Assembly: GCA_013286315.1 (NCBI GenBank)
Contig: JABDFX010000023.1
Coordinates: 1-34,048 of the forward strand
Length of the DNA stretch: 34,048 bases
Origin: Bacteroidota bacterium
GTDB lineage: Bacteria; Bacteroidota; Bacteroidia; Chitinophagales; Chitinophagaceae
Reading direction: 5' to 3'
A model generated the notes under the pieces. The model was not told the origin of the DNA, did not search any database, and was given only the letters and a program-made list of their open reading frames with translations. Made by a program: the position numbers and the translations under genes. Shown one piece after another: positions 7,168 to 33,280 of this stretch; within the stretch, counting starts at the first letter, position 1; each line of letters starts with the position of its first letter.

Positions 7168-7229
7168 ATAAGAAATTTACTCTAAAATATCGTTTTTTTA
7201 CCTGCTCCACCAATATAATCTCCGTTAAG

Positions 7230-7239
7230 TTTGTACAAA
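7230..7239. promoter_or_regulatory. Palindrome in the divergent araC/czcA spacer
   Basis: TTTGTACAAA is a perfect 10-base palindrome about 50 bp upstream of the efflux fusion start and 63 bp upstream of the AraC gene start. It could be an operator or part of the promoter. AraC proteins usually bind direct repeats, so a link to this regulator is weak. Confidence 0.25.
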
Positions 7240-7287
7240 TGATTGAAAACAAACTTCTAATAACTATTCGCGACGATAAGTCATAGT

Positions 7288-12811: not shown

Positions 12812-12826
12812 AAATGAAATACTTTG

Positions 12827-13270
12827 CTACAAACTGGACAAAATAATTAATATAAATCCAAGTAGGGTAAGTACGGTTCTTGCAATGTGAAAGTGCCGCC
12901 ATTTATCCATGACATACTCCCACTTATTGGGCATGCGTTCCTTAGACCATCTCATTATTTGTTTATTTAGCGCCTGCATACCCTTTCGGGTGATGATCTC
13001 TGCGCCAAATAATAAAATGGCCGAGATGATAAGATAAATAGAAACAATATTACTCTGCAATAAGGCAGAACCCAAGGTCATTAATATAGTAGCGACGCCA
13101 AGAAATGGTAGCCTTTTTTGATATGTCTTTATAAATACCTGATGAGTCTCCAAATATATATCATAGGAAGGGTTTTGGCGATAGGACCCTATCCAGATGA
13201 TTATCATCATTCCGGATAATACTCCTGACAATAAGACATCAAAAAAACGAATGACGAATAATATCATCAT
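12827..13270 (-). CDS. DUF1772 small membrane protein
   Basis: 147 residues with four predicted membrane helices (~5-28, 53-72, 75-92, 128-147). The order of helices and the conserved stretch 'NKQIMRWSKERMPNKWEYVM' followed by 'KWRHFHIARTVLTLLGFIL' match DUF1772, a family that includes anthrone-oxygenase-like fungal proteins but is uncharacterised in most bacteria. It lies at the 3' end of the efflux operon, on the opposite strand, and just downstream of the terminator of the TonB receptor. It has no clear role in metal handling; its place in the cluster may be incidental. Confidence 0.72.
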   Translation of the reverse strand: MMILFVIRFFDVLLSGVLSGMMIIIWIGSYRQNPSYDIYLETHQVFIKTYQKRLPFLGVATILMTLGSALLQSNIVSIYLIISAILLFGAEIITRKGMQALNKQIMRWSKERMPNKWEYVMDKWRHFHIARTVLTLLGFILIILSSL

Positions 13271-13310
13271 TAGGCATTTTGTTTTATCGATTATAAGTTT
13301 GAATCATAGG

Positions 13311-13341
13311 AAAAAAGCGGGCCCCATACAGCAGCCCGCTT
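13311..13341 (-). terminator. Intrinsic terminator of the TonB receptor gene
   Basis: Read on the minus strand, the arms AAGCGGGC and GCCCGCTT (8 bp, perfect, 13334-13341 and 13315-13322) enclose an 11-base loop and are followed by a run of Ts. It lies 33 bp past the stop codon of the TonB receptor gene, which is on the same strand, and before the DUF1772 gene start, so the two genes are probably transcribed separately. Confidence 0.8.
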
Positions 13342-13373
13342 AATAATTAAGAATAAAACCCAGATCGGGGTAA

Positions 13374-15941
13374 TTAATTCTTTAAATCAAAATCCAGCGG
13401 GAAATCTATTTTAAAGGCGATGTTTCTGCCCATATTATAAATTCCAAGATGGCCATTTGGTGACGAAGTATACTGTTCAAAATATTTCAACCTGCTCAAA
13501 TGATCCTGGTATGCAACATCAAATAAATTATTCCCCATTATATAAATGTTGAAGATCGTTTTACCTTTACTATTTGTAATTCCACCACCGATTCCTGCAT
13601 TGAATAATGTATAGCCGGGAGTTGGTGTTTCGGTATTGTCAGTAAGGTAAACCCTGTTTTGCGCTGCATAGTATGCCAACTGTACTTTTACAAAGCCGTT
13701 GACAATATGACCAGACCTGCTCTCAAAATTATATCTCAGTTCAGATAAGCCGTGAAGAGGTGGAATAAATGGCAAATATTTATTACTGTCTGATTGCAAT
13801 TTAGGATCGACTCCCTTGTTTAGTGCATATACCGCTGACAAGCTGTTTTCAAAATGGAGGCCTTTCACTATGTGAATATCAACAGTTAATTCTCCACCAT
13901 ATAACAGTGCCTTCCCTTGCTGAAATTTGAATGTTTGAGTACCCGGTACAATAACAGAATCTGCCCCGGATGCAGTTACGACTTTTTGATTAAATATGTA
14001 ATTTGAAATACTATTGTTAAACAAACTCAGAGCTACTAAAAGATTATTTGAAGAATATTCTGCTCCAATATCTTCCTGGATATTAAATTCAGGTTTAAAC
14101 GCATCATTTCCAATTTGATAGCTATTTGTTCCCGGATGCACGCCGTTGGATGATATTTCCGCAATATTCGGCGCCCTGAATCCACGGGATAAATTTGCTT
14201 TTACAGAGAATTTTTCCGTGAAATTATAAGTAGCTCCTATACTTCCGGAAATGCCGGAAAAAATATGGTTGTAATTAGAAAATGGTTTACTGGCACCAAC
14301 CGTATCTGCGCCATATACAGGCATGTCAAATCCGGTGACGGGATTTGGACTTGTATATAGTTCGTCATTCTTGAAAGATCTGTTGTCGTACCTTAAACCA
14401 CCCGATATATCCAATTTTTCAAAAGTCTTTTTGATCATCGCAAAAGGACCGATATCGAATTGATGGTAAGAGGGAATTACAAAATCCGTTCCATTCGTTA
14501 CCGTATTTCCCTGGTACATCCCGTTAACTCCTGCGGTTAGATTCCAACCATCGAATTCGGGGAAGTAGTATTTCAAATCATAGGAATAGGTGTTGAGCTG
14601 CAGAAATAATCCGGGTGTGCCTGGAGCTTCAGGATGACTAAACTCGCGGCGCACACTTCTCTGGTATCCAAGGTTAACCGCTAACCTGCCGTTGCCAATG
14701 ATAAAGTTGTTATTGGTATATACCCTGTAATGCTGTATATGCTGATGTAAAACGCCGATTGTATAAGTGTTCAATTCCTGATTTGTTACAATTGGCCTCA
14801 CAGTATCAGCCTCCGTGATTTGCTTGGTAAATTGCCTGGTCGCTGAGTCCCGGCTTCCATCAGGTATTTCCTGAAGATCATCAAAAAGAGAAAAGCTCAG
14901 GTGAGAGTATCCCCATGAACGGTGAATGCCCACTGAGAAACCCGCATCAGATTCATTAAAAGCTGTGTTATAAACGCGTCCGTCAATCGGATCCTGGTAA
15001 TTTTTGGCTTGTTTATGAGATAGTCTTCCCATCCATTCAAAACCGTTTTTCGTAGATCCGAGCATAACAGATCCGCCGAATAAACCATTGTTTGTTTGAT
15101 ACTCTCCCAATATATCACCTATTAATTTTCCCTCCGGTGCAGGTTGGGTAGGTATCAGGTTTACTACACCCGCCAGGGCATCGGAGCCATATGTCAGACT
15201 TGCCGGCCCTTTAATTATTTCTATTTTTTCTACGCCGTATTGATCTACTTCTATCCCGTGTTCATCACCCCATTGTTGCCCTTCCTGTCTCAATCCATCA
15301 AATAAGGTCAGTACCCGGTTATAACCTAAGCCCCTGATAAATGGTTTAGACACATTGGGACCCGTCGTTAACGCACTGACACCGGGAACTTTCGCAATTG
15401 CATCTATAATATTTGTGCTAAGGTTAGTAACAATGTAATCGTGATTGACCGCAACAATGGGAACGGGACTTCTTTTTATCTGAGTTGCTTTTGACAATCC
15501 TGTCACTACAACAGGGCTTTCTTCCGTGGCAAATTCTGCTAATTCGAAGTTTTCTACTGTACTCCCGCTGATGATCACATTTTTTATTATTGTTTTAAAT
15601 CCGACGTAATGGACCTCAATCAGATAGGTTCCAAATGGTAAGGAATTGAAATGATACTGACCGCCTGCATCCGCAATCACGCCCAGTTTCAGATCAGGAA
15701 TATAAATAGTGGCTCCGGGTAAAACATTTCCCTTCCCCTTTTCAATTACTTTCCCGGATAATGTTCCGGCAGCTATGAATATTTTTTTTTGTTTGACAGA
15801 ATTGGTGCTTTGAGAAAATAAAGCATTGTTTATTGCAAGGCATAACGTAAAAAGCAACAAAGCTTTAGTTGGAGATGTTTTCACAACAATAATTTTAAGA
15901 TAATTATTAATTATTTGATACCGACGGCTGAATTGGTCCAT
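13374..15941 (-). CDS. ZnuD-like TonB-dependent outer-membrane receptor
   Basis: 855 residues. After a signal peptide ('TKALLLFTLCLAINNALFSQ') come a carboxypeptidase-regulatory-like domain ('LPGATIYIPDLKLGVIADAG', 'FGTYLIEVHYVGFKT'), a TonB plug ('FIRGLGYNRVLTLFDGLRQ', 'GIEVDQYGVEKIEIIKGPAS', 'LTYGSDALAGVVNLI') and a 22-strand-type barrel ending in the aromatic 'RNIAFKIDFPLDF'. The 'GDEHGIEVDQYGVEKIEI' plug variant resembles ZnuD and related metal receptors, so uptake of a metal or metal-chelate is likely; the substrate is an inference. The ATG at 15941 puts 19 residues before the signal peptide; the in-frame GTG at 15884 fits a signal peptide better. It is followed by a good terminator. The small secreted protein gene lies 106 bp upstream on the same strand. 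Confidence 0.9.
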   Translation of the reverse strand: MDQFSRRYQIINNYLKIIVVKTSPTKALLLFTLCLAINNALFSQSTNSVKQKKIFIAAGTLSGKVIEKGKGNVLPGATIYIPDLKLGVIADAGGQYHFNSLPFGTYLIEVHYVGFKTIIKNVIISGSTVENFELAEFATEESPVVVTGLSKATQIKRSPVPIVAVNHDYIVTNLSTNIIDAIAKVPGVSALTTGPNVSKPFIRGLGYNRVLTLFDGLRQEGQQWGDEHGIEVDQYGVEKIEIIKGPASLTYGSDALAGVVNLIPTQPAPEGKLIGDILGEYQTNNGLFGGSVMLGSTKNGFEWMGRLSHKQAKNYQDPIDGRVYNTAFNESDAGFSVGIHRSWGYSHLSFSLFDDLQEIPDGSRDSATRQFTKQITEADTVRPIVTNQELNTYTIGVLHQHIQHYRVYTNNNFIIGNGRLAVNLGYQRSVRREFSHPEAPGTPGLFLQLNTYSYDLKYYFPEFDGWNLTAGVNGMYQGNTVTNGTDFVIPSYHQFDIGPFAMIKKTFEKLDISGGLRYDNRSFKNDELYTSPNPVTGFDMPVYGADTVGASKPFSNYNHIFSGISGSIGATYNFTEKFSVKANLSRGFRAPNIAEISSNGVHPGTNSYQIGNDAFKPEFNIQEDIGAEYSSNNLLVALSLFNNSISNYIFNQKVVTASGADSVIVPGTQTFKFQQGKALLYGGELTVDIHIVKGLHFENSLSAVYALNKGVDPKLQSDSNKYLPFIPPLHGLSELRYNFESRSGHIVNGFVKVQLAYYAAQNRVYLTDNTETPTPGYTLFNAGIGGGITNSKGKTIFNIYIMGNNLFDVAYQDHLSRLKYFEQYTSSPNGHLGIYNMGRNIAFKIDFPLDFDLKN

Positions 15942-18690: not shown

Positions 18691-19515
18691 TTAGAATATT
18701 TGCATGGGAATCAACTCAAATTTCTCCTTCCCTAATGTCATTTCGAAAACCCGTACCTGGGGATATTTTTCCTTAATAATGTCCAATATTGCAAATTTTT
18801 CAGTTTGTGGCATATCGAATCCTAAATGAACAGTCTTAAATGCCACTGGATCCACAATTGCCTTTGCGTTTCTGGATAATACTGTAGTAAAGCGATACTC
18901 GTCTTCATATTTCCAAAAGCACGCCTTTGTATATACCAATTTATGCATTAATTCGTGATTCATTTCTAGGACACTTATTACAGGAATTTCATCCGAATAG
19001 TGAACTTTTGCAAATTTGCCGAAATTCTGCTTAACTAATTTTTCGGTATCAAATCCTATTACAAACCCCTTGTGACGGTCGGCATAATGGGACCACATTA
19101 AAAAATTTGCAGGATGAGGGGTCAGGCTGAGGACCCCATATATAGAACTTAGATCATTCCTTTTAAATCCATAATTATCATGAAAATAGCCTTCCGGATC
19201 TTGCATAATATATAATAATTGTTTGGTGACCTCTTCCTGGAGCGCAAACGGGTCATTTTTTATATGCTGAAATTTATAAGGGGCTAATTGTTCTAATTTA
19301 TTTTTGATCTTAATAGGATCTGAATCATCCTGATCATGTCTAAGTGGTAGTCCGCAATCATATGGATCGTTAAACTTTTTGGGATCCGGGAAAAATATTT
19401 CTAAATCCGTTAGGAGTCTTCTATGGTTGGGGTTAGTCCAGACCCTATATTTATATAAGCTTAAAGGCATTGTTGCAAAAAAATCTGCTTCAGTAGACGG
19501 AAAGTAGGTTACCAT
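18691..19515 (-). CDS. DUF2971 domain protein
   Basis: 274 residues, soluble. DUF2971 features are present: N-terminal 'LYKYRVWTNPNHRRLLTDLE', 'FFPDPKKFNDPYDCGLPL', then 'YGVLSLTPHPANFLMWSHYA', 'RHKGFVIGFDTEKLV', and the C-terminal 'CFWKYEDEYRFTTV'. DUF2971 proteins have no assigned activity but often sit in defence islands and mobile elements. This gene is the last of the seven minus-strand genes, 33 bp downstream of hamB, so it is probably co-transcribed with it. It may be a third component or a passenger. Confidence 0.85.
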   Translation of the reverse strand: MVTYFPSTEADFFATMPLSLYKYRVWTNPNHRRLLTDLEIFFPDPKKFNDPYDCGLPLRHDQDDSDPIKIKNKLEQLAPYKFQHIKNDPFALQEEVTKQLLYIMQDPEGYFHDNYGFKRNDLSSIYGVLSLTPHPANFLMWSHYADRHKGFVIGFDTEKLVKQNFGKFAKVHYSDEIPVISVLEMNHELMHKLVYTKACFWKYEDEYRFTTVLSRNAKAIVDPVAFKTVHLGFDMPQTEKFAILDIIKEKYPQVRVFEMTLGKEKFELIPMQIF

Positions 19516-19548: not shown

Positions 19549-22080
19549 TCAAAAATCCTCGATAATGAGTTTGTGCCATTTATTTACTGACGGGCTTATC
19601 TTTACGCGCTGAATGTATAATTTCAATTCCCTTTCATTGATCTTTCCTTCGCTGTCTTTTAAATTGTCATTCGGCACGTTTTGTAAAATAGATATAGCCG
19701 TTTCTCGCGGGATGCCAATTTCAATTAATGCCCGCAAACGCACATCAAGTCCACCTACCTCGATAAAGGATAAAATCGAAGCCGCCTTCCCTTCAGTTAG
19801 TATATCGCTAATTTGAAAAAGTGGTTTGAGTAATTTTGGTATACCAAATACCACTTTTGTTTGTATGTCATTTATTCTGTCCTCAATATCATCACTCGTC
19901 TCGATGGGAAAACCCGGAGGATTTATTACGCTCATAAGGGGTACGCCGCGGCCATAATTTTCGGCGAAAATGGCTAGTGAAAGAACCTTGCCGACACTGT
20001 GGTCAGTAATCTCTAAATTTGGTAAATATCTGTTATAATACAAAGGCGAAAACGCTGCCATTCTAATAATGCAATCTCTTAACGTATCAGTTATATTTAT
20101 TATGCTATTTGGAATTAACCCCCATTCTCTATTTAGGAAACTAACATATAATTTATTTAAAATAAGGGGGTCCCAATAAAAATTATTCCGACATATAATT
20201 TTTGGAACTGCTAGGGTAGATAATTGTGATAGTGTTTCATTCAAAATTTTATCGGATATTGGAATTCCAACCTCTGCAAGACGACCTTGAGCATGAATCC
20301 CATAGCGAACGCACATATTTCGAATGTAAGTGACAAGATCATTGTGTTCCTGATCAGTCATTTCAATATTCTTACTTAAACAATTTTGAATACCTGATTT
20401 TTCCTCTTTAAATCTTTTAGCGTATCCCACAAACAATTCTTTTTGCTGTGACATATCCAATTTGATGCCTGCCTTTTCGCAGGATTTCTCATTAATAATC
20501 AAAGCCCTGCCAACAAAATCTTGCATTAATCTGCCAGCTCGACCTTTTAAATTCGAAAATTCGTATCCGGTTAAATTTTCACTACTGCCTACTTTAGGGG
20601 TTTTAATTATAATATTTTTTGCAGGAAGATTAACACCTTGCATTAAAGTTGTAGTCGCTACAATCGTACTCAAATGTCTGTATGCAAAAAGTTTTTCAAC
20701 AAGACATCGAATATGAGGGGGCATTTTACTGTGATGGTATGCTACACCCTTTTTTAGAGTTTGTAGAAGCGCATATTTAGGGTGTACCGTCGATTCAACA
20801 AAATCAGTGAAGCTATCAGTTTCGTCTGATAAATAGTTGTTGTCAAGCCTTTCAGCTATTCCAAGAGCAATATTTTTTGCCGGTTTTGTTTTGTCTGCAA
20901 AAATGATATTGCCATCTCTTTTGCTTCGATTTATTACTGATGCCACCAGATCATATTCATCATCATCAAATTTTTGCCGTTTCAATATTTTTTCCTTTAT
21001 GTGAAACTTATCATCGATTTCGATTGACTGGAATATGTTCTCTGATATATATTGGACGAAATCAACCCCCTTTCCCCTTGGCGTTTTAAAAGTGTATGTA
21101 ACATTTAGAACTGAGGGCAGATCCTCAGTAACGCTTTTGGCATCGTCGCCAAACCACTCTTTAATTATTGATTCCAGTTTATCTAGTCGAGGTCCGCTCA
21201 ATATAATTTTTTGTGGAGCAATATCATTCTTGAAAATTTGTATTACGTCAAAGAGTATCTTTGAACGCTCTTCATCTTCTAAGGGAACCTTTTCGATATT
21301 TTGTATTTCGTCAACAATTAGCATAAGTACGTCTGAAAAATTGGCCTCAGGATGATTTAGTGCAGAGAAGGCTCTTTCCTGAGTAAGTACATATACAATT
21401 TTTGGAGCCTTGAATAAAGAAATATCATTTACGGTTTGGGCAACCTCAATATTTGTCAGTTTCAAGTCTCTTATTTTCCTTTTAAAATCATTGGAAACTT
21501 GGGTGATTAAGCTATTTGTTGGAACAATAAAAAATATTTTTCCGTCCTGGTTCAATAATACTTGTATGGCTTTGTTAACCAATACAAAGGATTTACCTGC
21601 GGAAGTAGGGGCTGAGACGCCTAATCTGGAATACTTGTCGATTCCATCCCACATTCTTTTCTGGAAATCTGACAGTATAATTTTTTGATTGGAAATGGTT
21701 ACCTCATGCCCCGCCAAATCGACGGTTGAACACAATTCTTCGATTAAACTGCCTAAAGAATTAAATAATCCAAATTGATTATTCCAATTTACCATTTTAG
21801 CAGATGTGCCAAGACCTAACCTGATTAATATCCTAGAAATAAATGGCGGCAAACCAGACCACTGAGGTTGCCGGTTCTCCCAAAGAAGCGCTGTAATGAG
21901 TAGGCTTTTATACCTATCCTCATCCGCAGGATTAAAAGAATAATCTTCAGCGAGGTTCAATAATTGACATGCCTTAGATTCTGGAAAGGGTGAGATTTCT
22001 TCACTGATTAATCCGAATTTTTCCGCCACCTTTTTAAGATTGTACAGAAAAAGTTCGTTTTCTAGTGAAGAAAATGTCAT
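19549..22080 (-). CDS. hamB: HamB, superfamily 2 helicase of the Hachiman defence system
   Basis: 843 residues. It is a Ski2-like helicase: Walker A 'APTSAGKS' at 157-164, Ia 'IVPTNSLI' at ~185, DEIQ at 257-260, III-like 'ILSGPRLD', motif V 'VATTTLMQGVNLPAK', motif VI 'NLKGRAGR', and a helical C-terminal half of ~300 residues. In Hachiman, HamB surveys DNA ends or single strands and releases the nuclease HamA on sensing damage or infection. It overlaps hamA by 4 bp (ATGA), the normal translational coupling. The function is inferred from these motifs and the neighbour; both support each other. Length is typical of HamB. Confidence 0.9.
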   Translation of the reverse strand: MTFSSLENELFLYNLKKVAEKFGLISEEISPFPESKACQLLNLAEDYSFNPADEDRYKSLLITALLWENRQPQWSGLPPFISRILIRLGLGTSAKMVNWNNQFGLFNSLGSLIEELCSTVDLAGHEVTISNQKIILSDFQKRMWDGIDKYSRLGVSAPTSAGKSFVLVNKAIQVLLNQDGKIFFIVPTNSLITQVSNDFKRKIRDLKLTNIEVAQTVNDISLFKAPKIVYVLTQERAFSALNHPEANFSDVLMLIVDEIQNIEKVPLEDEERSKILFDVIQIFKNDIAPQKIILSGPRLDKLESIIKEWFGDDAKSVTEDLPSVLNVTYTFKTPRGKGVDFVQYISENIFQSIEIDDKFHIKEKILKRQKFDDDEYDLVASVINRSKRDGNIIFADKTKPAKNIALGIAERLDNNYLSDETDSFTDFVESTVHPKYALLQTLKKGVAYHHSKMPPHIRCLVEKLFAYRHLSTIVATTTLMQGVNLPAKNIIIKTPKVGSSENLTGYEFSNLKGRAGRLMQDFVGRALIINEKSCEKAGIKLDMSQQKELFVGYAKRFKEEKSGIQNCLSKNIEMTDQEHNDLVTYIRNMCVRYGIHAQGRLAEVGIPISDKILNETLSQLSTLAVPKIICRNNFYWDPLILNKLYVSFLNREWGLIPNSIINITDTLRDCIIRMAAFSPLYYNRYLPNLEITDHSVGKVLSLAIFAENYGRGVPLMSVINPPGFPIETSDDIEDRINDIQTKVVFGIPKLLKPLFQISDILTEGKAASILSFIEVGGLDVRLRALIEIGIPRETAISILQNVPNDNLKDSEGKINERELKLYIQRVKISPSVNKWHKLIIEDF

Positions 22081-22997
22081 TTAATACCTAGTTTAGTTTG
22101 AAAATCTTTTAGTAACTTATCCAATTCATTGACCGGAAAAAGAATATAGTGCAGTTCTTTTAGCAAGCCGGGATGTATTGCATTACCCTCAGCATCTTTA
22201 TAATGTGTGACAGTTATCTTTTTACATTCTGCTAATACTTGATCGATATAATGTTGAGTGTATTCTTCTTTTGTTGCTAAAGTTGGTGTTTCGCCGGTAC
22301 AATAACTAATGATTATTACAAGCTTTACAGGTAAATCAATTGCGCCACTCAAGTAATCTTTCATTATTGCCTTCACTTTTGGTTCCAGGAAATCTCCATA
22401 GCTGTGTAATTGCAATTCGTCTCTGTGTTCAGCATGCGCCTTAATAATACTTTGTACTGCGTTTTTAAAAGCAGGGACGAATCCGGAGGGGTACGTTTTT
22501 GCCTCTCCCAAGTATACACAATATTCCTTCGTGTCTAATTGGCCTAAATGGATCGCATCCGCACCATTTCTTTCTAATTCTGTGTTAGTTGTTATTTGCA
22601 TCTTCCTGACTACGGGTATAGCTTCAAAATAGTATTGGAGCAAATTAAATAGAAGCAGTTCGGAAAATTGGCCCTTAATATCGCTTTTCCTAAAATATCC
22701 ACTTGCCTGCTGAAATATTTCTGCTTCAGCATCGCTTTGATCAAACCCTTCTCCGCGAAGCACATCCTGGTTGGCCGCATACTTGGATTTTGAAAGAACA
22801 TATCGTACAATAGAACTTGTCAGCCTTTGAATGAATTCTTTGCGCATTTGAAGTAGTCCCTGGTATTTTATGGAGGTTACTACGTGTTCCCCAGCTGGAG
22901 AGAGGCCAATATTGGCTTTTCCGTAATGCATTGTATTAATCAATGGCTCGATGCTATCAAGTAGAGATTTTATATCCAGGTCGGTTTCGGTTGCCAT
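22077..22997 (-). CDS. hamA: HamA, DUF1837 nuclease of the Hachiman defence system
   Basis: 306 residues with the DUF1837 pattern: 'KGQFSELLLFNLLQYYFEAI' (E113 region), 'NGADAIHL' (D147) and 'LGEAKTY' (E165-A-K167). These are the residues of a PD-(D/E)XK nuclease core, so the active site looks intact. The long helical C-terminal part ends in 'LHYILFPVNELDKLLKDFQT'. Established role: HamA is held inactive by HamB and degrades DNA when activated, killing or arresting the cell. It starts 19 bp downstream of the compact helicase gene and overlaps hamB, so it sits mid-operon. Confidence 0.9.
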   Translation of the reverse strand: MATETDLDIKSLLDSIEPLINTMHYGKANIGLSPAGEHVVTSIKYQGLLQMRKEFIQRLTSSIVRYVLSKSKYAANQDVLRGEGFDQSDAEAEIFQQASGYFRKSDIKGQFSELLLFNLLQYYFEAIPVVRKMQITTNTELERNGADAIHLGQLDTKEYCVYLGEAKTYPSGFVPAFKNAVQSIIKAHAEHRDELQLHSYGDFLEPKVKAIMKDYLSGAIDLPVKLVIIISYCTGETPTLATKEEYTQHYIDQVLAECKKITVTHYKDAEGNAIHPGLLKELHYILFPVNELDKLLKDFQTKLGIK

Positions 22998-23016: not shown

Positions 23017-24045
23017 TCACTCACATTTCTGTGCTATAGTCGATAAAAAAGTATATGGAACAAAATACAAATTTTGTCTTGCCCTTGAACATGCCACATA
23101 GAATTTGTTTCTTGTTTGTGGAACAAGTGTTTTCAAACGACCAGAATTATAGCTTTCCAATACTGTTTTATTGAGGATAACGCATACGTTGTTATACTGA
23201 TCTTCACCTTTGCAATCGCCCCAATTTTTAGAAAAACAGCCATATTTATAATGTTCCTGGTAAAATAATTTTACAATTTGGTTATCGTTAAAAATATCTT
23301 GCGCTTCTGCGGTATTATTGACAAAGGTAATAAGCGTAGAATCTGTCCTATGTGATTGAATTTCGATTCCTATTTGATCGCTTATGAACTGACACAGAGT
23401 TGGACTACATCGGTAACTTTTTGAAAGTGTTGCGGAGTCAATTGCAAATCCAGCCTCGCGAAAGGTTCCTAAGTATTTTCTGAAATCGTCATGTAGGGAA
23501 TTATTTACCTTACCATCGCGGCTGGTATCAAAAGTATGCTGGTAGAAATCACCTACAAAAAGCATGTCGATGTCGGTTTGGGAAATATCCCTTAAAAAAT
23601 TGAAATCGTGACCGGCGAAATCCTGCACTTCATCAATATATAGAACATCAAAGTATTTTGAGAAACGGGGAATTATATCTTGCAGTATATTATTTTCGAC
23701 CACAAATTTTGCGATCCGATTACTGTATAGTCTTCCGAAGTTATCTATATACCTGCGATCACCACGAGCAAAAAAATTGGTGTTAGATTTCCAATTTATC
23801 CCTTTGGTACTGTGTTTACTGGCTAAAAATGGGCGGTAACAAAATGAGTAAAGAAAACTATAATAATTGACTAACTTGATTGTGGCTGGGAAATAGCCCC
23901 ATTTTCCTATTATTTTACGACGAAGATTGTCATAGTTGTTATTGGTATAGGTAATAATTAACGCTCGCTTTTCTAGCGTGAGTTGGTTGATAATATGGGT
24001 GGTTTTCCCCGAACCGGCAACAGCAAAAATTACTGTTTTATCCAT
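23017..24045 (-). CDS. gajB: Compact UvrD-like helicase (GajB-like)
   Basis: 342 residues. Superfamily 1 motifs are all recognisable: Walker A 'AVAGSGKTT' (8-16), II 'YIDEVQDF' (D138, E139), III 'FVGDFYQH' (~164), IV 'SYRCSPTLCQF' (~210), and VI 'FYVACSRARQNLYFV' (~315). It lacks the large 1B/2B insertions of UvrD and is much shorter than B. cereus GajB (about 490 residues). It overlaps the upstream OLD-family gene by 16 bp, and this pairing is that of Gabija. Its short size may mean it is a nucleotide hydrolase with limited helicase activity, which fits GajB's proposed role. It is also close to UvrD-type proteins found with other OLD nucleases. Confidence 0.8.
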   Translation of the reverse strand: MDKTVIFAVAGSGKTTHIINQLTLEKRALIITYTNNNYDNLRRKIIGKWGYFPATIKLVNYYSFLYSFCYRPFLASKHSTKGINWKSNTNFFARGDRRYIDNFGRLYSNRIAKFVVENNILQDIIPRFSKYFDVLYIDEVQDFAGHDFNFLRDISQTDIDMLFVGDFYQHTFDTSRDGKVNNSLHDDFRKYLGTFREAGFAIDSATLSKSYRCSPTLCQFISDQIGIEIQSHRTDSTLITFVNNTAEAQDIFNDNQIVKLFYQEHYKYGCFSKNWGDCKGEDQYNNVCVILNKTVLESYNSGRLKTLVPQTRNKFYVACSRARQNLYFVPYTFLSTIAQKCE

Positions 24046-25589
24046 TCTATGGCATTCTTGATATACTGAGGCACATGTAGCGATGACTCTTTTTTATCCA
24101 ATAGATCGAAAGCTACATCAGCCTTGTTGTGCAGCATATAATCCTGGACTGAAAGCGTTCTTCGGGATACAGCGAATAATTCTTCACAAAGAGTTTGATT
24201 TTCGAGATACAAGCAAATTTCAAAAGTAGAACGGTTATTGTCGGAATCACCAAAGATTTTGATCAAATCACTAGCATATTCGGAATACCTCTCCACACAA
24301 TTTTTCTGGTAATCTCCGTCGTTGTCCCTAATGACGGCGGTTTTGACGTTTAGAGTTTTTGCGAGTTCCAGGTATCTTTTAAAACTGGTCCCTCCAATGG
24401 AGATAATATGAATATCGAAATAATGAGGATCCCTTGTAGTTACTTTTTTAAAAAAAGATTCTAACAAAATGAATTCGGCGTCGCCTTCTACCAAAATAAC
24501 TTTCTTAGATAGAATAAACTCATTGACATTGTTATCAGGAGCTTTCATGAAAAATTTCGCCGTGTCTTCAGAAAGGAAATTAAGCCGCGAAACATTAGTG
24601 CTGTTGCTGTTAATCAGTATTGCCTTGCGTAGGTCCAATCTGGAGCTAATTAGGCTATTATGAGTGGTAATAAATAGTTGTTTTTCACCTGCATCCAGAA
24701 TTTTACCTACAATCTTTTTCATATTTACGTGACTTAGGTGATTTTCAGGCTCTTCAAGCAAAATCACATCTATCTTTCCACTACTTCTGTTTAATGCAAA
24801 TTCGGTTTTGATGAAACATTGCCGGCCTTTGCCTTTGTTTTCGATATTAATGTCAGCTTCAGTAAGAGTCAGATCGGTTTCCAAGTTGGCCTTAGAATTA
24901 TTTCTGATACCGAACGCATATCCGTCAAACCGGCTATTTAGATCTGTTAACGCGGATCTCTTAAATGCTTCCTTATGCTTTCGGTATTCATTTTTATGTT
25001 TGTTTTTCTCGGTATCCAAGGCATAGCTGCTATACATATTCTTTATATACTCTCTTGTTGCGTATTCATTGCTAATATGTGCGTTGTCGATAGATATATG
25101 TTTAAGGAACTTGGAATATCCAGTTACGCTTTGGTCTGAAAAGGTTTTAAACGTTATTGAATAATATTCAAAAGGAAAGCAAGGCTCCTCTTGTGAAAGG
25201 ATTTCTTTGATTTCTTTACTGAGTTCGTCTATTGGCGAACATTTCATGAATAACCCGTCACAAATGATATTGTCGGAATTATTTTTACCGTTCAAATCAG
25301 GGTTATTTTGCTCACTTAGGTAAATTTCAATAAAAAGTTCAGGAAGGTCCTTATATCTCTTGGATGAATTTAAAAATTCTTCTACAACCTCGTGGTTGAA
25401 CAAACTTTCTAACCCAATTGTTTCTGTTTTGCTTCTACTCGCGCTTAAGACCAGGTCGATTGCATTTAAAATAGAACTTTTGCCTGCTTCGTTATCCCCG
25501 ATAAGCATGTTCAGGGTTTTGTCAAAAGTAACTTCAAATGATTTGAATCGTCTGAAGTTCTTGAGTTTAATTTTTTGAATGTGTTTCAT
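24030..25589 (-). CDS. gajA: OLD-family ATPase with TOPRIM nuclease (GajA-like)
   Basis: 519 residues. N-terminal ATPase: Walker A 'GDNEAGKSS' at 31-39, Walker B 'VILLEEPENHL' at 275-285, H-loop 'FITTHN' at ~306. C-terminal TOPRIM: 'VILVEGDAEF' (E368, E372) and 'RDNDGD' (D422, D424), which are the metal-binding residues of the OLD nuclease. GajA of Gabija has this architecture; it cuts DNA when nucleotide is depleted. It overlaps both neighbours (4 bp and 16 bp), so it is part of one unit. It could belong to another OLD-based system, but the helicase partner fits Gabija. Confidence 0.85.
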   Translation of the reverse strand: MKHIQKIKLKNFRRFKSFEVTFDKTLNMLIGDNEAGKSSILNAIDLVLSASRSKTETIGLESLFNHEVVEEFLNSSKRYKDLPELFIEIYLSEQNNPDLNGKNNSDNIICDGLFMKCSPIDELSKEIKEILSQEEPCFPFEYYSITFKTFSDQSVTGYSKFLKHISIDNAHISNEYATREYIKNMYSSYALDTEKNKHKNEYRKHKEAFKRSALTDLNSRFDGYAFGIRNNSKANLETDLTLTEADINIENKGKGRQCFIKTEFALNRSSGKIDVILLEEPENHLSHVNMKKIVGKILDAGEKQLFITTHNSLISSRLDLRKAILINSNSTNVSRLNFLSEDTAKFFMKAPDNNVNEFILSKKVILVEGDAEFILLESFFKKVTTRDPHYFDIHIISIGGTSFKRYLELAKTLNVKTAVIRDNDGDYQKNCVERYSEYASDLIKIFGDSDNNRSTFEICLYLENQTLCEELFAVSRRTLSVQDYMLHNKADVAFDLLDKKESSLHVPQYIKNAIEWIKQ

Positions 25590-26332
25590 AGTTTGATTTG
25601 CTTGAGCGTATCCAGTTTTCGGAGCCTAACGATATTGTATTTCGAAAACGAAGCGTTTCCGATTGTGAATAAATCATAAAGAATATTAATATGGTATCTA
25701 CCTTCTAAGCTTTTTTTTATTCGGTCGGAATGTGCATTTGATTTTCCCGATATCAATAATGAAGCCGAAAGATGTTCTCGACCATTGGCCTTTTTAGGCT
25801 TAAGAAGTCGTGGCTTTAATTCGTTAATTATGCCTACGAAATTGAACAGGAGTTCTGGAAATGGATTGAAATTCTTTGCTTCGCAAAAAGTAATTAGGCT
25901 ATGATTTTCTACGAAATAATACTTCGTATTGGAATGATAAAAGTCTTCATCTTTCATAATAGTATTGGGATGGATGACCGAAATATCAGGCGTGGTAAAA
26001 ATATCCTTCTGAAAAGATGATTGCACATTCAGGTTATGTCTGATTTCATATAATTTGATTTGGTTACCTTGTGTTTTGCTAATCTCAAAAAAGGAAAAAT
26101 TATCAGGATTGCCGGCCGTCGAACATTTGTAGCGAAATTTCTGTTTTACCAGGTTCTTTATTTGCGTGACATATCCATTATTCTCATAAAAGCGAACTAT
26201 GTTATTGTAGCAGGCCATCTCAAAAAAATCGCTGATTCGTTTGGAATGATTGTAAATAACAGTTCTATGTCTTCGTAAGAAATTATCCAGGTCTCTATTT
26301 AACTCTTTTAAGTCTTTGAAGGGATTAGCCAT
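25586..26332 (-). CDS. Putative PD-(D/E)XK nuclease upstream of the GajA-like gene
   Basis: 248 residues. No named family recognised. Around 112-153 it reads 'TTPDISV' (D116) and, 34 residues later, 'ITFCEAKN' (E151-A-K153), the D...E-x-K layout of PD-(D/E)XK nucleases. A helical N-terminus with E38 in 'ISDFFEMACY' could supply the helix-1 residue. The part after the motif, 'LLFNFVGIINELKP', would be the next helix. The C-terminal third ('HLSASLLISGKSNAHSDRIK') has a beta-alpha pattern. It overlaps the small upstream gene by 8 bp and gajA by 4 bp, so it is tightly linked. The nuclease call rests on one motif. Confidence 0.6.
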   Translation of the reverse strand: MANPFKDLKELNRDLDNFLRRHRTVIYNHSKRISDFFEMACYNNIVRFYENNGYVTQIKNLVKQKFRYKCSTAGNPDNFSFFEISKTQGNQIKLYEIRHNLNVQSSFQKDIFTTPDISVIHPNTIMKDEDFYHSNTKYYFVENHSLITFCEAKNFNPFPELLFNFVGIINELKPRLLKPKKANGREHLSASLLISGKSNAHSDRIKKSLEGRYHINILYDLFTIGNASFSKYNIVRLRKLDTLKQIKL

Positions 26333-26763
26333 TATTTTCGTTTACACGCGCTTTGAAAGCTTTGATCTTTCGTAAGAGCTCTTTTGTTTCCAGGTAGTCA
26401 AATAAGTCGATTTCTATTGAATATTTAGCCAGTAGTTCCTGGTATTGTAAGATTACACGGGTCATTTTGTTTCTTTCTCCAGTAGTTAATTCATAGGTTC
26501 CTAATTGTACAGAGACTGCTTCACTATATTTAAAAACACGGTTGGTAAATTTGGTAGCGGCATCAAAATTGGAAATGATTCTTTTGTAAAAAATAGAGAG
26601 GGCCAAAATAAGGCTGATGGAGTCAAGGTCGCCTTGTAAAGGAGTGTAAAAAATCAAATCGTCCTGAAAGCAAATAGCGTATATCACTCAGACGATTATT
26701 ATACTCGCTCGTCAATTGTTCGGCTAGTTTGTAAGGCAGACTTCTTGTAAATTGTTCTATCAT
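26325..26763 (-). CDS. Small helical protein, first gene of the module, with a homopolymer frameshift
   Basis: The intact frame to 26687 begins at a GTG directly after a TGA and gives an odd start. Reading upstream in another frame gives an ATG at 26763 and 'IEQFTRSLPYKLAEQLTSEY', then 'NNRLSDIRYLLSGRFDF', which then falls into the first frame at 'TPLQGDLDSISLILALSIFY'. Both parts read as one natural protein if one base is removed from the T6 on the minus strand (As at 26648-26653). Total length, 439 bases, is one more than a multiple of three. The corrected protein would have 145 residues, mostly alpha-helical and without Cys-based sites. It starts the operon and overlaps the nuclease gene by 8 bp. 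Role unknown; a sensor, inhibitor or adaptor are guesses. Confidence 0.65.
26648..26653 (-). other. Homopolymer frameshift site in the small helical gene
   Basis: A run of six As on the plus strand (Ts on the coding strand). With five, the ATG at 26763 stays in frame to the stop at 26325-26327. It mirrors the A6 lesion in czcB, so a systematic indel error in the assembly is possible; phase variation is the other reading. Confidence 0.6.
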
Positions 26764-26968: not shown

Positions 26969-27430
26969 TTAGAGTAGCCCTTCATCAGCGAACGATAAAA
27001 AGCCGTCAGATGAAATAATTAAATGGTCGAGAACTTTTATATCGAAAAATTTAGAACCATTTTTTATTTTTTCAGTTAATTCAAGATCTGCGTGACTTGG
27101 AATAAGTGATCCGGATGGATGATTGTGACATAGGACAATGGATTTTGCAACGCCCACAATCGCCGTCAGCAATATTATTTCAGGATCGGCTACGGTTCCT
27201 GTAATACCTCCTTTAGAAATGGGATAGATGCCTTTTACACTGCCTCCCCTGGTGAAAAGCATGATCTTAAATTCTTCAACCAGGTGGATTGAGCCCCTAT
27301 CCCATTTTGCAAGGAATAGCTGGTAAACTTCCTGCGAATTTTTGGCTACGGGCATCTCTGAGATTTTCATCTTAGGATGATAGCTAACCTTTACATCTGA
27401 AACAATCGGGAGTTTTTTTAAGCTTACCAT
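26969..27430 (-). CDS. radC: RadC-like JAB-domain protein
   Basis: 153 residues, shorter than full RadC because the N-terminal helix-hairpin-helix region is missing. The JAB/MPN metalloprotease-like site is complete: 'CHNHPSGSLIPSHADLEL' with H102, H104 and D115, preceded by 'LFTRGGSVKG' and 'KGGITGTVADPEII'. The established link to DNA repair is poor. Short forms of this family are common on integrative elements and near restriction and anti-restriction genes in Bacteroidota. Same strand as the defence operon, 205 bp upstream, so independent or only loosely linked. The upstream GC-rich leader may control it. Confidence 0.93.
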   Translation of the reverse strand: MVSLKKLPIVSDVKVSYHPKMKISEMPVAKNSQEVYQLFLAKWDRGSIHLVEEFKIMLFTRGGSVKGIYPISKGGITGTVADPEIILLTAIVGVAKSIVLCHNHPSGSLIPSHADLELTEKIKNGSKFFDIKVLDHLIISSDGFLSFADEGLL

Positions 27431-28412: not shown

Positions 28413-28625
28413 ATATATAAAGGCTTCGCATTATCTAAATAGGGTAGATTTCCTACAAAATCGTAAGTGTTTACATTTAGGCGCCATAATTACGAGAAAG
28501 GAATTTAAGCGACTTATAAATTGCAAAGTATTTTACTACGTCCGTTAATCGGCGACCGCTTTTATACTGATTACCAGGCCAGTTACACGAGGAAGGTTTT
28601 CCTTTCAACTCTTACTTTATCTTCT

Positions 28626-29315
28626 ATGAGGATTCGAAGAATTACAAAGTACTCAGAAAACGAGTTATTAAGAAGATTCCGTGAGCGCGAATCTTCGGTG
28701 ATCGAAGAAATTCACCGTCGTTACTATTATCAAATATTTTTCTTTGCAAAAAGAATCACCTGGGATGAAGCGGAATCACAGGATATCGTTTCAGAAGCCT
28801 TCATCCGATTAATCGAGTCGTCCGAAAAAATTACCAGTCTTAATCATGCTTGTAATTTCTTGTACCTGGTAGCTCGCAATTTATCTCTGGGTTACCTTCG
28901 AAGAAAAAAGACGCGGGATCTTGCTGAGGAACAGCTTCAGTTTCTATCTGGGCACGGAGAAGACTATCTTGACCAGGAGCGGATAACGGCAAAATATTTC
29001 GACCAATTACATAAAGAAATAGAGAATCTACCCAGCCAGCCAAGGAAAGTTGTTTTACATATTCTAAATAACAAAACAACAAAGGAAATTGCTGAAATTA
29101 TGGGGATTAGCACTAAAACCGTTGTAAATCACAAAAACTTCGCTGTCCATATTTTACGAAAAAAACTATTCATTTCCCAATTCACGATTCTTTCACTATT
29201 TGCATCATTTATGCAGATGAACGGCCATTCAAATTGGAATGATCATAGATCCCAAGTACAACACGGAACAGAGTATTTCCTTTCAAAGGTAAATTGTCAT
29301 GATTATGCCTATTAA
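28626..29315 (+). CDS. ECF-type RNA polymerase sigma factor, first of a pair
   Basis: 229 residues from the ATG at 28626; a TTG at 28521 would add 35 residues that do not belong to the family. Region 2: 'YYYQIFFFAKRITWDEAESQ' followed by 'DIVSEAFIRLIES'; region 4: 'LPSQPRKVVLHILNNKTTKE' then 'IAEIMGISTKTVVNHKNF'. It ends with a hydrophobic stretch 'FISQFTILSLFASFMQM', which is a common feature of the Bacteroidota ECF sigmas that end in a membrane-like tail. No FecR-like anti-sigma gene or SusC/SusD pair follows, unlike the usual setting. A second sigma gene overlaps its 3' end by 17 bp. Confidence 0.88.
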   Translation: MRIRRITKYSENELLRRFRERESSVIEEIHRRYYYQIFFFAKRITWDEAESQDIVSEAFIRLIESSEKITSLNHACNFLYLVARNLSLGYLRRKKTRDLAEEQLQFLSGHGEDYLDQERITAKYFDQLHKEIENLPSQPRKVVLHILNNKTTKEIAEIMGISTKTVVNHKNFAVHILRKKLFISQFTILSLFASFMQMNGHSNWNDHRSQVQHGTEYFLSKVNCHDYAY

Positions 29316-30075
29316 GGAAAATTTCGAGCGGGACCATAGTAAGGACTCTTTGACGAAATCTTTCTGGGTAAAATCCCGGAGGCAGGCCGCAGATCTAAAA
29401 AGGTTGGTTCACTTAACAATTGCGGGCAAGGATGACAAAGAAATTTCCCGTAGCCCGGATTTAAACCTAAATGGACAAGCGGGTTATATGCGCTATAAGG
29501 CGCAACGGGAGGAGATTTTACCAACTGGGTTTCAGTATGAAAACTGGCTAGAAAGCTTTATAAAGGGTGATAAATGGCTGTGGGATCAGGTTTATGTAAA
29601 GCATAACACAGCATTGTACTCCTATGCGCTAAGCCTCACCAAATACAATATCCAGGCCTCTGAGGATCTGACAGCCATCGCCTTCAGTAAGCTCTGGCAT
29701 TTTAGAGGTAGAATTCAGGATGAAAGCCATATAAGGCCCTGGCTTTACCGGGTATTAAAAAATGCCTTTTTAGATGACATGGATAAGGGCAGGCGTACCC
29801 AGGCTTTCCTGGATTCGTTAAACTATGAAAAGTTTGTGGAGGAAGATACGTCTGCCGGCCTGGAAATGATTCATGCGGAAATTATTGCTGATCTGATGGA
29901 TGAAGTCAGGCAATTACCTCCCAGAATTAAGTCGGTTTTTGAATTATTTTATTTTGAACATAAGGACAACAAGGAAATTGCTGATATATTGGGAATTAAA
30001 GAAGAAGCTGTGGCGCGATATAAATTAAGAGCGAAAGAATTGCTTAAATCGAAGTTTCTGAAGAAGACCCTCTAG
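29299..30075 (+). CDS. ECF-type RNA polymerase sigma factor, second of a pair
   Basis: 258 residues. An N-terminal ~85-residue extension ('FWVKSRRQAADLKRLVHLTI') is unlike usual ECF sigmas. Region 2 follows ('YVKHNTALYSYALSLTKYNI', then 'LTAIAFSKLWHF'), with 'IRPWLYRVLKNAFLDDM' typical of region 2.3/2.4, and region 4 is 'LPPRIKSVFELFYFEHKDNK' plus 'EIADILGIKEEAVARYKL'. Overlap with the first sigma gene is 17 bp. The stop TAG shares four bases (CTAG) with the stop of the convergent small gene. The extension could carry a regulator-binding helix. No cognate anti-sigma factor in the window. Confidence 0.87.
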   Translation: MIMPIKENFERDHSKDSLTKSFWVKSRRQAADLKRLVHLTIAGKDDKEISRSPDLNLNGQAGYMRYKAQREEILPTGFQYENWLESFIKGDKWLWDQVYVKHNTALYSYALSLTKYNIQASEDLTAIAFSKLWHFRGRIQDESHIRPWLYRVLKNAFLDDMDKGRRTQAFLDSLNYEKFVEEDTSAGLEMIHAEIIADLMDEVRQLPPRIKSVFELFYFEHKDNKEIADILGIKEEAVARYKLRAKELLKSKFLKKTL

Positions 30076-30499: not shown

Positions 30500-33280
30500 A
30501 TGCCACTATCCTGGAACGAGATTAAAAGTAGGGCCATTGCCTTTAGTAATGAATGGAAAGACGAAGTAAGCGAGGACGCTGAAGCTAAAACCTTTTGGGA
30601 CGATTTCTTTCATGTATTTGGAATCAGTCGTCGGCGCGTCGCCACTTTTGAACAACAAGTAAAGAAACTGGATGCAAAGACCGGTTTTATTGACCTGCTA
30701 TGGAAGGGAGTGATATTAATTGAACATAAAAGCCGGGGGAAAGACTTAGATAAGGCTTTCACCCAGGCGAAAGATTATTTCCCAGGTTTAAAGGAGCAGG
30801 AACTTCCCCGATACATCCTTGTAAGCGACTTTGGCCGATTTAGGTTGTATGACCTTGACGGCAATACTCACAAGGAATTTACATTAGCAGATTTCATCAA
30901 TCACGTTCATTTATTTGGTTTTATAGCTGGTTACCAAAAACGGTTATTTAAAGAGCAGGATCCGGTCAATATTGAGGCGGCTCTTCTCATGGGCAAATTG
31001 CATGATAAATTAAAGAATATTGGATTCGACGGGCATCAGTTGGAACTGTACCTGGTACGGTTGCTGTTTTGTTTATTTGCCGATGATACCAGCATCTTCG
31101 AGAAAGGAATTTTTCAGGAATATATCGAACTGCGGACCAATGAGGACGGAAGTGACTTAGCAGCTCACATTGGCGAACTATTCCAAGTTTTAAATACCCC
31201 TGATCAGAAACGGTTCAAGAATCTGGATGAGGCCCTGATGGCATTTCCATATGTAAATGGAAAACTATTTGAGGAACATCTTTCGTTGGCTCACTTCGAT
31301 AGCGAAATGAGGCGTATTCTACTAGATTGCTGTCTTTTGGATTGGGGAAAAATATCGCCGGCCATATTCGGCTCTTTGTTTCAAAGCGTGATGGACGACA
31401 AGGCCAGAAGAAACCTCGGAGCTCATTACACCAGTGAAAAAAATATTCTTAAGCTTATTAAACCGCTTTTCCTGGATGATTTAAGGAATGAGTTTGAAAA
31501 GATAAGACGAGATAAAAACAAACTAAAAAGGTTTCACGAGCGGATAAGTAGGTTAAGGTTTCTTGATCCGGCTTGTGGTTGCGGCAATTTCTTAATCATA
31601 GCCTATCGCGAACTAAGGTTACTCGAACTCGATATCATTAAAGCGCTGCTTGAAGGTCAACAAGTGACCAGTATTAATGATTATTTTCTAGTAGATGTTG
31701 ACCAGTTTTATGGGATTGAATACGAGGAGTTCCCCAGTCAAATAGCTCAGGTTGCTATGTGGTTGATGGATCACCAAATGAACGAACACGCAAGCTTGTA
31801 CTTTGGAGAATATTATAAAAGAATTCCCCTAAAAAAGAGTGCAACGATCATTCATGGAAATGCGTTGCGCACTGACTGGCATGGAATACTTAAGCTAAAT
31901 TCTTCAGCAAACATCTTGAAAAAGTATCACTTTATTTTGGGCAACCCTCCATTCTTAGGAAAGCAATATCAGAATAAGGAGCAAAAAGAAGATATGGTCA
32001 TGGTCTTCCAAGACGTTAAAAGCGCCGGAGCACTCGACTACGTATCTGCCTGGTATATACGGGCTGCTCAATATTTGAAAAATTATGGCAGTGTTGAAGA
32101 AAAAGAGTTGCCTAAAACAAGGATAGCTTTTGTAAGTACAAATTCTATTACTCAGGGGGAGCAAGTGGCAATACTTTGGGGTGAACTCTTCAATTCCTAT
32201 AAAGTAAAAATCCATTTTTGTCATAGAACTTTTAAATGGGGAAATGAAGCCCGTGGAAATGCGGCTGTTCACGTAGTTATTATTGGGTTTTCCAATTTCG
32301 ACATCTCTGAAAAATTGATATATGCCTACGATGATATCAAGGGTGAGCCACATGAAATAAAGGCAAAGAATATTAACCCTTATTTGGTCGAAGGTAAAGA
32401 TGAATATGTTGTAAGGAGAAAACAGACCATCTCTAACGTCACAGAATTGATAAAAGGGAATCAACCGACAGATAATGGGTACTATTTATTTACAACTCAA
32501 GAAAAAGAATCGTTCTTGAAAGTTGAACCTGGCGCTCAAAAATGGTTTAGAAGATTTATAGGCTCAAGTGAATTCATAAATAATACGGAAAGATGGTGTT
32601 TATGGTTAAAGGGAATTACTCCCAACGAGTTAAAACACCTACCGAAAGTTTACGAACGAATTCAAAAGGTAAGGGCTTATAGGTTGGAAAGCCAAAAAGC
32701 TGCAACTGTAAAGAAGGCTGATACACCTTCTCTTTTTGATGAAATAAGGCATACAGATAAAACTTATATGGTCATACCAGAAGTTTCGTCAGAAAGGAGA
32801 AAGTATCTGCCGATGGGATTTGTTGATAAAAATGTCATTAGTAGTAATAAAAATTATATGCTGCCTAATGCTACACTTTATCAATTTGGAATTCTTAATT
32901 CAATAATGCATAATTTATGGACACATAGCGTTTCTGGAAGATTAAAAAGTGATATTCAGTATTCAAATGGGATTGTTTATAACAATTATCCCTGGCCAGA
33001 TAATCCCACTGACAAACAAAGGGAGTCCATAGAAAAAGCAGCTCAGGGAATCCTGGATGCGCGGGCGAGTTTTCCGGAAAGTAGTTTAGCTGATCTATAC
33101 GATCCTAATACGATGCCACCCTCACTAGTAAAGGCACATCAGGTACTTGATCGCGCAGTTGATCTTTGTTATCGCAGTCAGCCATTTCCATACGAAACTA
33201 AACGAATTGAATTCTTATTTGAGTTGTACGACCGATATACTTCTGGATTGTTTGTCAAACAAAAGAAAAGTAAAAAATGA
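30500..33280 (+). CDS. MmeI-type single-chain restriction-modification enzyme (type IIG/IIL)
   Basis: 926 residues. N-terminal PD-(D/E)XK nuclease: 'GFIDLLWKGVILIEHKSRGK' with D65, E75 and K77, the spacing seen in MmeI. A helical connector follows. The adenine-N6 methyltransferase core has motif I 'DPACGCGNF' at 356 and motif IV 'NPPF' at 482-485. The C-terminal ~300 residues form the target-recognition domain ('VIPEVSSERRKYLPMGFVDK', then 'GRLKSDIQYSNGIVYNNYPW'). Such enzymes both methylate one strand of their recognition site and cut at a distance, with no separate subunit. The specificity cannot be read from the sequence. Length is full. Confidence 0.92.
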   Translation: MPLSWNEIKSRAIAFSNEWKDEVSEDAEAKTFWDDFFHVFGISRRRVATFEQQVKKLDAKTGFIDLLWKGVILIEHKSRGKDLDKAFTQAKDYFPGLKEQELPRYILVSDFGRFRLYDLDGNTHKEFTLADFINHVHLFGFIAGYQKRLFKEQDPVNIEAALLMGKLHDKLKNIGFDGHQLELYLVRLLFCLFADDTSIFEKGIFQEYIELRTNEDGSDLAAHIGELFQVLNTPDQKRFKNLDEALMAFPYVNGKLFEEHLSLAHFDSEMRRILLDCCLLDWGKISPAIFGSLFQSVMDDKARRNLGAHYTSEKNILKLIKPLFLDDLRNEFEKIRRDKNKLKRFHERISRLRFLDPACGCGNFLIIAYRELRLLELDIIKALLEGQQVTSINDYFLVDVDQFYGIEYEEFPSQIAQVAMWLMDHQMNEHASLYFGEYYKRIPLKKSATIIHGNALRTDWHGILKLNSSANILKKYHFILGNPPFLGKQYQNKEQKEDMVMVFQDVKSAGALDYVSAWYIRAAQYLKNYGSVEEKELPKTRIAFVSTNSITQGEQVAILWGELFNSYKVKIHFCHRTFKWGNEARGNAAVHVVIIGFSNFDISEKLIYAYDDIKGEPHEIKAKNINPYLVEGKDEYVVRRKQTISNVTELIKGNQPTDNGYYLFTTQEKESFLKVEPGAQKWFRRFIGSSEFINNTERWCLWLKGITPNELKHLPKVYERIQKVRAYRLESQKAATVKKADTPSLFDEIRHTDKTYMVIPEVSSERRKYLPMGFVDKNVISSNKNYMLPNATLYQFGILNSIMHNLWTHSVSGRLKSDIQYSNGIVYNNYPWPDNPTDKQRESIEKAAQGILDARASFPESSLADLYDPNTMPPSLVKAHQVLDRAVDLCYRSQPFPYETKRIEFLFELYDRYTSGLFVKQKKSKK

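Follow-up and report, generated by a model that had tools for sequence, protein, structure and literature searches.

Locus organization

The window analyzed here is a 34,048-nucleotide stretch of a Bacteroidota bacterium genome (assembly GCA_013286315.1, contig JABDFX010000023.1, positions 1 to 34,048). Its defence run comprises seven genes, all on the minus strand, transcribed in the order small gene, nuclease gene, gajA, gajB, hamA, hamB and a DUF2971 gene. The first two, encoding a small helical protein and a predicted PD-(D/E)XK nuclease of 248 residues and hereafter called the pair, are our subject; judged from sequence, they are a conserved two-gene unit and not part of the Gabija system (GajA and GajB) that follows them.

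26325..26763, minus strand: gene for the small helical protein, opening the two-gene module; frame-broken here, with 16 loci holding intact relatives and 2 more assigned by position
25586..26332, minus strand: predicted PD-(D/E)XK nuclease, 248 residues; P115-D116 and E151-x-K153, with E38, H99 and E160 also invariant
24030..25589, minus strand: compact GajA, 519 residues; Walker A GDNEAGKS at 31, E368, DxD at 422/424
23017..24045, minus strand: compact GajB, UvrD-like, 342 residues; PADLOC match, helicase motifs
22077..22997, minus strand: HamA (Hachiman nuclease); PF08878 at 1.6e-27; 19 base pairs (bp) after gajB
19549..22080, minus strand: HamB (Hachiman helicase); PADLOC HamB match at 7.8e-194
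18691..19515, minus strand: DUF2971 protein, PADLOC candidate PDC-S31; 33 bp after hamB

The small gene overlaps the nuclease gene by 8 bp, the nuclease gene overlaps gajA by 4 bp and gajA overlaps gajB by 16 bp; hamB and hamA overlap by 4 bp. The same 8-bp overlap between small gene and nuclease gene recurs in L006, L007, L008, L010 and L019. An initial annotation, made from the sequence alone, had placed the gajB-like, gajA-like and 248-residue genes on the minus strand with exact coordinates and sizes, and its three overlaps and its residues D116, E151, K153 and GajA E368 were right. It had also proposed a four-gene unit, of which three genes and the overlaps stand, whereas the 145-residue first gene spans a frame break and the run continues past gajB into hamA and hamB.

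Distribution and genomic neighbourhood of the pair

A pattern scan of an 84,980-species genome collection, which finds only copies matching the pattern, yielded 15 loci, and genome searches supplied further ones. We dropped near-copies (L005, L017 and G324 of L016; L047 and G906 of L046), entries that were the same by position (G738 as L015, G813 as L016) and L023/L033, in which the gene is cut by a contig edge, leaving 21 non-redundant loci. The last genome search returned two matches, both known copies (G692, L007). Two other matches were rejected as unrelated long proteins, L004 (E 2.7e-4) on its translation and L024 (E 3.2e-5) by length and E-value alone. The pair is rare: after removal of a weak match, a sample of 395 genomes from the phylum holds it in 2, one of them the genome of the window. 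Nuclease relatives were found neither in 72,556 plasmids nor in phages, nor in IMG/VR by pattern scans, which could show only pattern-matching copies.

The gene order is fixed. Wherever both genes are intact, which is the case in 18 loci, the nuclease gene follows immediately 3' of the small gene, with an overlap of 1–74 bases or end to end; two of these small proteins (in L046 and L048) are assigned by position only. That the nuclease and its position behind the small gene are kept in several bacterial families shows both genes to be real.

The partners vary. Gabija adjoins the pair in 7 of the 21 loci (the window, L014, L015, L016, L020, L043 and L044); gajA is cut short in L043, and a 202-residue gene separates the pair from Gabija in L044. 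Lamassu genes lie directly upstream in two loci (L010 and L046). Three more have other defence-type genes, namely a convergent PDC-S06 in L018, type II restriction-modification in L019 and a KAP/PtuA-like ATPase in L032, and L007 has a lone UvrD, with DUF262-type Orf5/HEC-06-like genes further upstream. No recognized defence gene was found in the flanks of seven loci (L006, L008, L009, L011, L013, L045 and L048), where family searches covered one to four neighbours each; the assignment of L045 to this class is loose, a small helix-turn-helix gene and an NsnC-like gene lying just downstream. The remaining locus, L012, is a short contig whose flanks have no PADLOC match. Transposase-type neighbours occur in L006 (Y2_Tnp) and L011 (rve/HTH_38). 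The pair itself matches neither the LmuA/B/C models of Lamassu nor the HamA/B models of Hachiman in PADLOC. In L014, one gene past the pair's downstream neighbour, a 767-residue protein (11767–14070) has a weak PADLOC caspase match (3.2e-9).

The 248-residue protein is a probable nuclease

Residues E38, H99, D116, E151, K153 and E160 are invariant in all 21 aligned rows, the window included, and P115 is kept in 18 of them. The AlphaFold2 (AF2) model of the window protein, with a mean predicted local distance difference test (pLDDT) score of 73 and a poor C-terminus, has among its elements helices at 8–21, 23–51 and 160–172 and strands at 81–88, 91–99, 117–120, 146–154 and 191–195. D116 immediately precedes one strand and E151-x-K153 lies within a later one, with a helix after it, as PD-(D/E)XK enzymes would lead one to expect; in their order the elements fit the alpha-beta-beta-beta-alpha-beta core of this fold. 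The best Foldseek match in the PDB is NucC (probability 0.97, E 0.015, TM-score 0.30), and ranks 10–17 include MUS81-EME1, XisH, MspJI and YaeQ, all of which we take to be PD-(D/E)XK proteins, with unrelated proteins between them. Searches of BFVD structures gave only weak matches, some restriction-enzyme-like. At the sequence level the protein had no significant match in Pfam, NCBIfam or PADLOC, and its profile matched nothing among PDB sequences. Motif, model and the weak fold matches together point to a probable PD-(D/E)XK nuclease, as the initial annotation had suggested.

NucC has a similar motif order, D...E-x-K. It differs from the window protein in that the latter lacks a sequence match in PDB or Pfam, aligns to it with a TM-score of only 0.30 and has a small helical partner, whereas the partner of NucC is a signalling enzyme.

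The small gene is broken in the window and intact in relatives

The interval 26325–26763 is 439 bases long, a length indivisible by three. The ATG frame from 26763 ends after 46 codons (26763–26623), and the remainder is covered by a 120-residue open reading frame (ORF) in another frame, with a GTG start (26687–26325). At the same place in 18 other loci stands a single intact gene of 142–169 residues, and 16 of the 18 proteins are recognizable relatives, the exceptions being L046 and L048. The first and second parts of the intact relatives match the window's two frames respectively; the gene in this assembly is therefore frame-broken. The break may be a real mutation or an assembly error; the assembly is 58.8% complete and in 202 contigs. 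In L009 the small gene is likewise frame-broken beside a full-length nuclease gene, in a locus with ambiguous bases whose assembly may be poor, and in L013 no small gene was found and the 5' end of the nuclease gene is altered.

The AF2 model of the L006 small protein is mainly helical (pLDDT 80). In Pfam the small proteins showed no domain, DNA-binding or other, above chance level; their profile gave weak matches among PDB sequences, mostly to 14-3-3 proteins (best E 0.05), and Foldseek returned nothing useful. In L046 (9008–9475) and L048 (7974–8435) a small protein occupies the usual position before a divergent nuclease. Its homology to the main family is not established (hhalign probability 7.5), and replacement of the partner is possible in these two loci.

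An SSB-like tip on one subunit

Acidic residues followed by [I/L]PF at the C-terminus form the tail of the single-stranded DNA-binding protein (SSB), which recruits partners. Such endings are found on the nucleases of L014 and L015 (both DDLPF), L016 (IDLPF) and L018 (FDLPF), and on the small proteins of L032, L043 and L045 (all DDLPF) and L044 (DEIPF). The tip is thus present in 8 of the 18 intact pairs, always on one subunit and never on both, and the side differs between lineages; on the nuclease tree the tip state changes at least three times. For comparison, DDDIPF is the SSB tail given in the available part of one source (PMC5872125). None of 470 other six-frame ORFs of at least 100 residues, from the same loci and three further ones, carries the tip, nor does any of 330 non-overlapping gene-like ORFs; a Fisher test for the enrichment gives 6e-10 on the assumption of independent proteins, which they are not. 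Of 21 SSB-family proteins in eight host genomes, 10 carry DDLPF, EDLPF or NDLPF at the end and come from 7 of the genomes; the rest are mostly short paralogues that lack the tip. We read these endings, from sequence, as a single SSB-like tail that the complex would use in the tipped lineages, whichever subunit carries it.

Association with Gabija

In three loci, the window, L043 and L044, the pair precedes gajA, and in four others, L014, L015, L016 and L020, it comes after gajB. Its small gene shares 4 bp with gajB in L014 and L016 and stands 9 bp away from it in L015, and in L043 a 15-bp gap parts the pair from gajA. There (4907–7631), gajA is cut to 112 residues beside a transposase-like gene pair, which by eye we take to be IS21-like. 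The GajA proteins beside the pair include the types PDLC00102 (the window), PDLC00080 and PDLC00083. In the nuclease tree all seven Gabija-linked copies fall within one 11-row clade (support 96/99), which also holds L018, L019, L032 and L045 and in which the window is sister to the other 10 rows; the remaining 10 rows of the tree have no Gabija. Eleven of the 18 inner branches are open, and the window nuclease is up to 61% identical to the L006–L013 group, yet the tree sets it beside the 10-row group. By parsimony the presence or absence of Gabija changes at least five times.

Among 348 Flavobacterium genomes, the nuclease occurs in 9 and GajA-like proteins in at least 46, at no fewer than 48 places (E ≤ 1e-20, with scoring limited to three candidates per genome). 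Five of the nine nuclease genes lie within 3 kilobases (kb) of a GajA gene or, in G773, of a gajA fragment; with near-copies (G324/G813 and G1063/G906) counted once, the figure is four of seven. The chance of such proximity is about 4e-4 per gene for 6 kb, so that five of nine would arise by chance with a probability of about 2e-15, or about 6e-7 if defence-island clustering is assumed to raise it 50-fold. The link between the pair and Gabija is real.

It is not obligatory in either direction. No nuclease match lies beside 43 of the 48 Flavobacterium GajA places. Relatives of the compact window GajA were found in 4 of the 395 phylum-sample genomes at E ≤ 1e-15, the window's own included, and the other three (57, 32 and 32% identical) have no pair within 17–18 kb around it. 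The window GajA matches 2280 plasmid records, 1674 of them covering at least 80% of it, and compact Gabija is accordingly common on plasmids; in two records examined, a 340-residue UvrD follows GajA, with no nuclease-like gene beside them in the incomplete annotation. As the pair is frequent without Gabija and Gabija without the pair, neither needs the other.

Gabija, Hachiman and other genes of the window

Gabija joins GajA, a class 2 OLD nuclease with an OLD-type ATPase and a TOPRIM domain, to GajB, a UvrD-like helicase. The assignment of the window's gajA and gajB to Gabija, made in the initial annotation, is supported by PADLOC (GajA 2.9e-113; GajB 7.2e-52 over residues 1–329), the compact models matching best, and by GajA domain matches to PF20469 (1.9e-19) and AAA_15 (1.6e-18). 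Both genes are present, with the Walker A, TOPRIM (E368, D422/D424) and helicase motifs all in place; GajB had no match at 0.001 among PDB sequences. The counterparts of E368 and D422/D424 in Bacillus cereus GajA are E379, D432 and D434 (PMC10781630, in the part available). The window proteins differ in being compact, forms already known through the PADLOC compact models, and Gabija as described in the accessible portions of two reports has no counterpart of the two extra genes (PMC10781630, PMC10568477).

From the matches to HamA and HamB, Hachiman is identified directly after Gabija, and Gabija, Hachiman and PDC-S31 possibly constitute one long defence operon. Just upstream of the run a short RadC/JAB protein is encoded on the minus strand (26969–27430). 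On the plus strand lie a restriction-modification enzyme of MmeI type in which all five MmeI domains are present (30500–33280), about 4 kb beyond the small gene, two overlapping ORFs (28521–30075) that by eye are presumably sigma-factor-like, and a 1455-residue RND efflux pump (ACR_tran; 7288–11655) with an outer-membrane efflux (OEP) domain on the same chain. The whole window contains no tRNA and no Rfam family at the gathering threshold.

Discussion

The reading that we favour, and hold to be somewhat probable, is that the small helical protein and the PD-(D/E)XK-type endonuclease make up a two-gene Bacteroidota module that can stand alone and has repeatedly come to lie beside or inside operons of DNA-targeting defence systems, most often Gabija. 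The gene order is fixed, the nuclease motif is invariant and the partners are varied, comprising several Gabija types in both orders, Lamassu, others or none. The mixed partners, together with plasmid-borne Gabija lacking the nuclease, therefore indicate that the module is portable and not a subtype of Gabija. Mechanistically, the two proteins would form one complex in which the nuclease is held or guided by its small partner, and this complex may cut phage DNA, or host DNA abortively, at replication or repair intermediates, to which proteins that bind SSB tails would bring it in the tipped lineages. The window's nuclease would share its expression with the compact Gabija and perhaps with Hachiman. 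The intermediates, arising during infection, would be of the kind that concerns these two systems: according to the portions of the papers at hand, linear DNA in the absence of RecBCD is the proposed target of Gabija (PMC12407980), and Hachiman responds to DNA damage (PMC12278908). Next to them, an additional nuclease could complete the cutting of nicked DNA or provide a back-up against inhibitors of GajA.

Several observations weigh against this reading. Nuclease activity and phage protection are predictions from sequence and model. No structural match reaches E ≤ 0.001 in the PDB or BFVD, Foldseek ranks 2–9 in the PDB are all the unrelated protease CtpA, and the nuclease model has a mean pLDDT of only 73 and a poor C-terminus. 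The window's own small gene is broken, so the nuclease there may be inactive or differently regulated. A sensing role for the small protein, raised in the initial annotation, is conjecture and would meet with the same break in the window. Neighbourhood cannot tell functional coupling from shared location in defence islands, and, since all Gabija-linked copies fall in one clade, the Gabija link may be old within it, with later losses, gains and changes of order. As for the tip, the window nuclease ends in KQIKL and so lacks it, as do the proteins of the L006–L013 group, and in G692 none of four SSB-family proteins (L075, L076, L077 and L078) is tipped, though its small protein (L032) is. Moreover, the codons for the tip of the four small proteins fall where their genes overlap the conserved PFK codons of the nuclease, and a '-PF-stop' ending is thereby favoured. 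In L020 the stop is at the same place in the overlap, yet the small protein ends in NSI; the small protein of L045 keeps LPF though its nuclease has lost the conserved proline. The tipped nucleases of L014, L015 and L016 have no such overlap at the tip, and that of L018 overlaps a convergent neighbour by 4 bases.

The initial annotation had considered a new subtype of Gabija. If the pair were integral to the system in this way, one could picture its nuclease completing double-strand cuts at GajA nicks and its small protein serving as an adaptor to the GajAB ring. The tight coupling argues for it (4 bp with gajA in the window, 4 bp with gajB in L014 and L016, gaps of only 9 bp in L015 and 15 bp in L043), as does the position of Gabija as the commonest partner, at 7 of 21 loci, all in the 11-row clade. 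Yet the annotation had itself looked to how often the upstream genes occur apart from Gabija, and they do so in most loci (14 of 21), four of which belong to the 11-row clade. Lamassu and others are found as neighbours too, both gene orders and several GajA types are represented, and most of the Gabija copies examined are without the pair: it is absent around the relatives of the window's GajA in three other phylum-sample genomes, it is present at just 5 of 48 Flavobacterium GajA-like places, and 2280 plasmid records with a GajA relative contrast with none of 72,556 plasmids with a nuclease match. We consider a Gabija subtype unlikely.

Several of the same observations bear on a toxin-antitoxin system. 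Here the product of the first gene would keep a toxic nuclease in check, and the pair would lie near defence genes through hitch-hiking in islands. The antitoxin-first order, the overlapping genes, the solo occurrences and the transposase-type neighbours in L006 and L011 would suit it; against it stand the Gabija co-location above chance, the lack of any Pfam domain above chance level in the small proteins, and the broken small genes beside full-length nucleases in the window and L009, a state that would not be expected with a strictly toxic nuclease, provided that the breaks are real. These make it, in our judgement, distinctly improbable. If instead the break in the window is taken at face value, the pair could be what is left of a defence cassette now decaying in this genome, where GajAB and HamAB alone would matter and the nuclease would be a bystander; L013, with no small gene detected and an altered nuclease 5' end, and the shortened gajA of L043 would be of a piece with such decay. 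The window nuclease nevertheless retains the family-invariant residues and its 4-bp coupling to gajA, and the break may be an assembly error. We give this explanation very little weight.

The portable module that we favour can be carried one step further, on a speculative footing that we think rather doubtful: the two-protein nuclease would dock through its copied SSB tail on host or phage SSB binders and serve as an interchangeable second cutter for Gabija, Lamassu and others, the nuclease being freed when docking is lost or takes place at phage forks. A possible link to complexes of proteins with single-stranded DNA would be shared with AbpAB, Hna and Retron-Eco8, in which defence responds to phage SSB according to the available portions of the reports (PMC10732053, PMC13381803, PMC10568477); the difference is that here some members of the pair carry an SSB-like tip themselves. 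In the open-access literature, as far as titles and the visible starts of abstracts among the matches listed go, the pair is not described; subscription journals lay outside this scope.

Taken together, two protein families that match nothing in Pfam or PADLOC gain a testable role, and Gabija and Lamassu can share the same optional adjoining nuclease module. The endings of the tipped lineages further point to copying of the SSB tail by a defence nuclease; if true, a defence protein with its own SSB tail would follow a logic different from that of systems responding to phage SSB.

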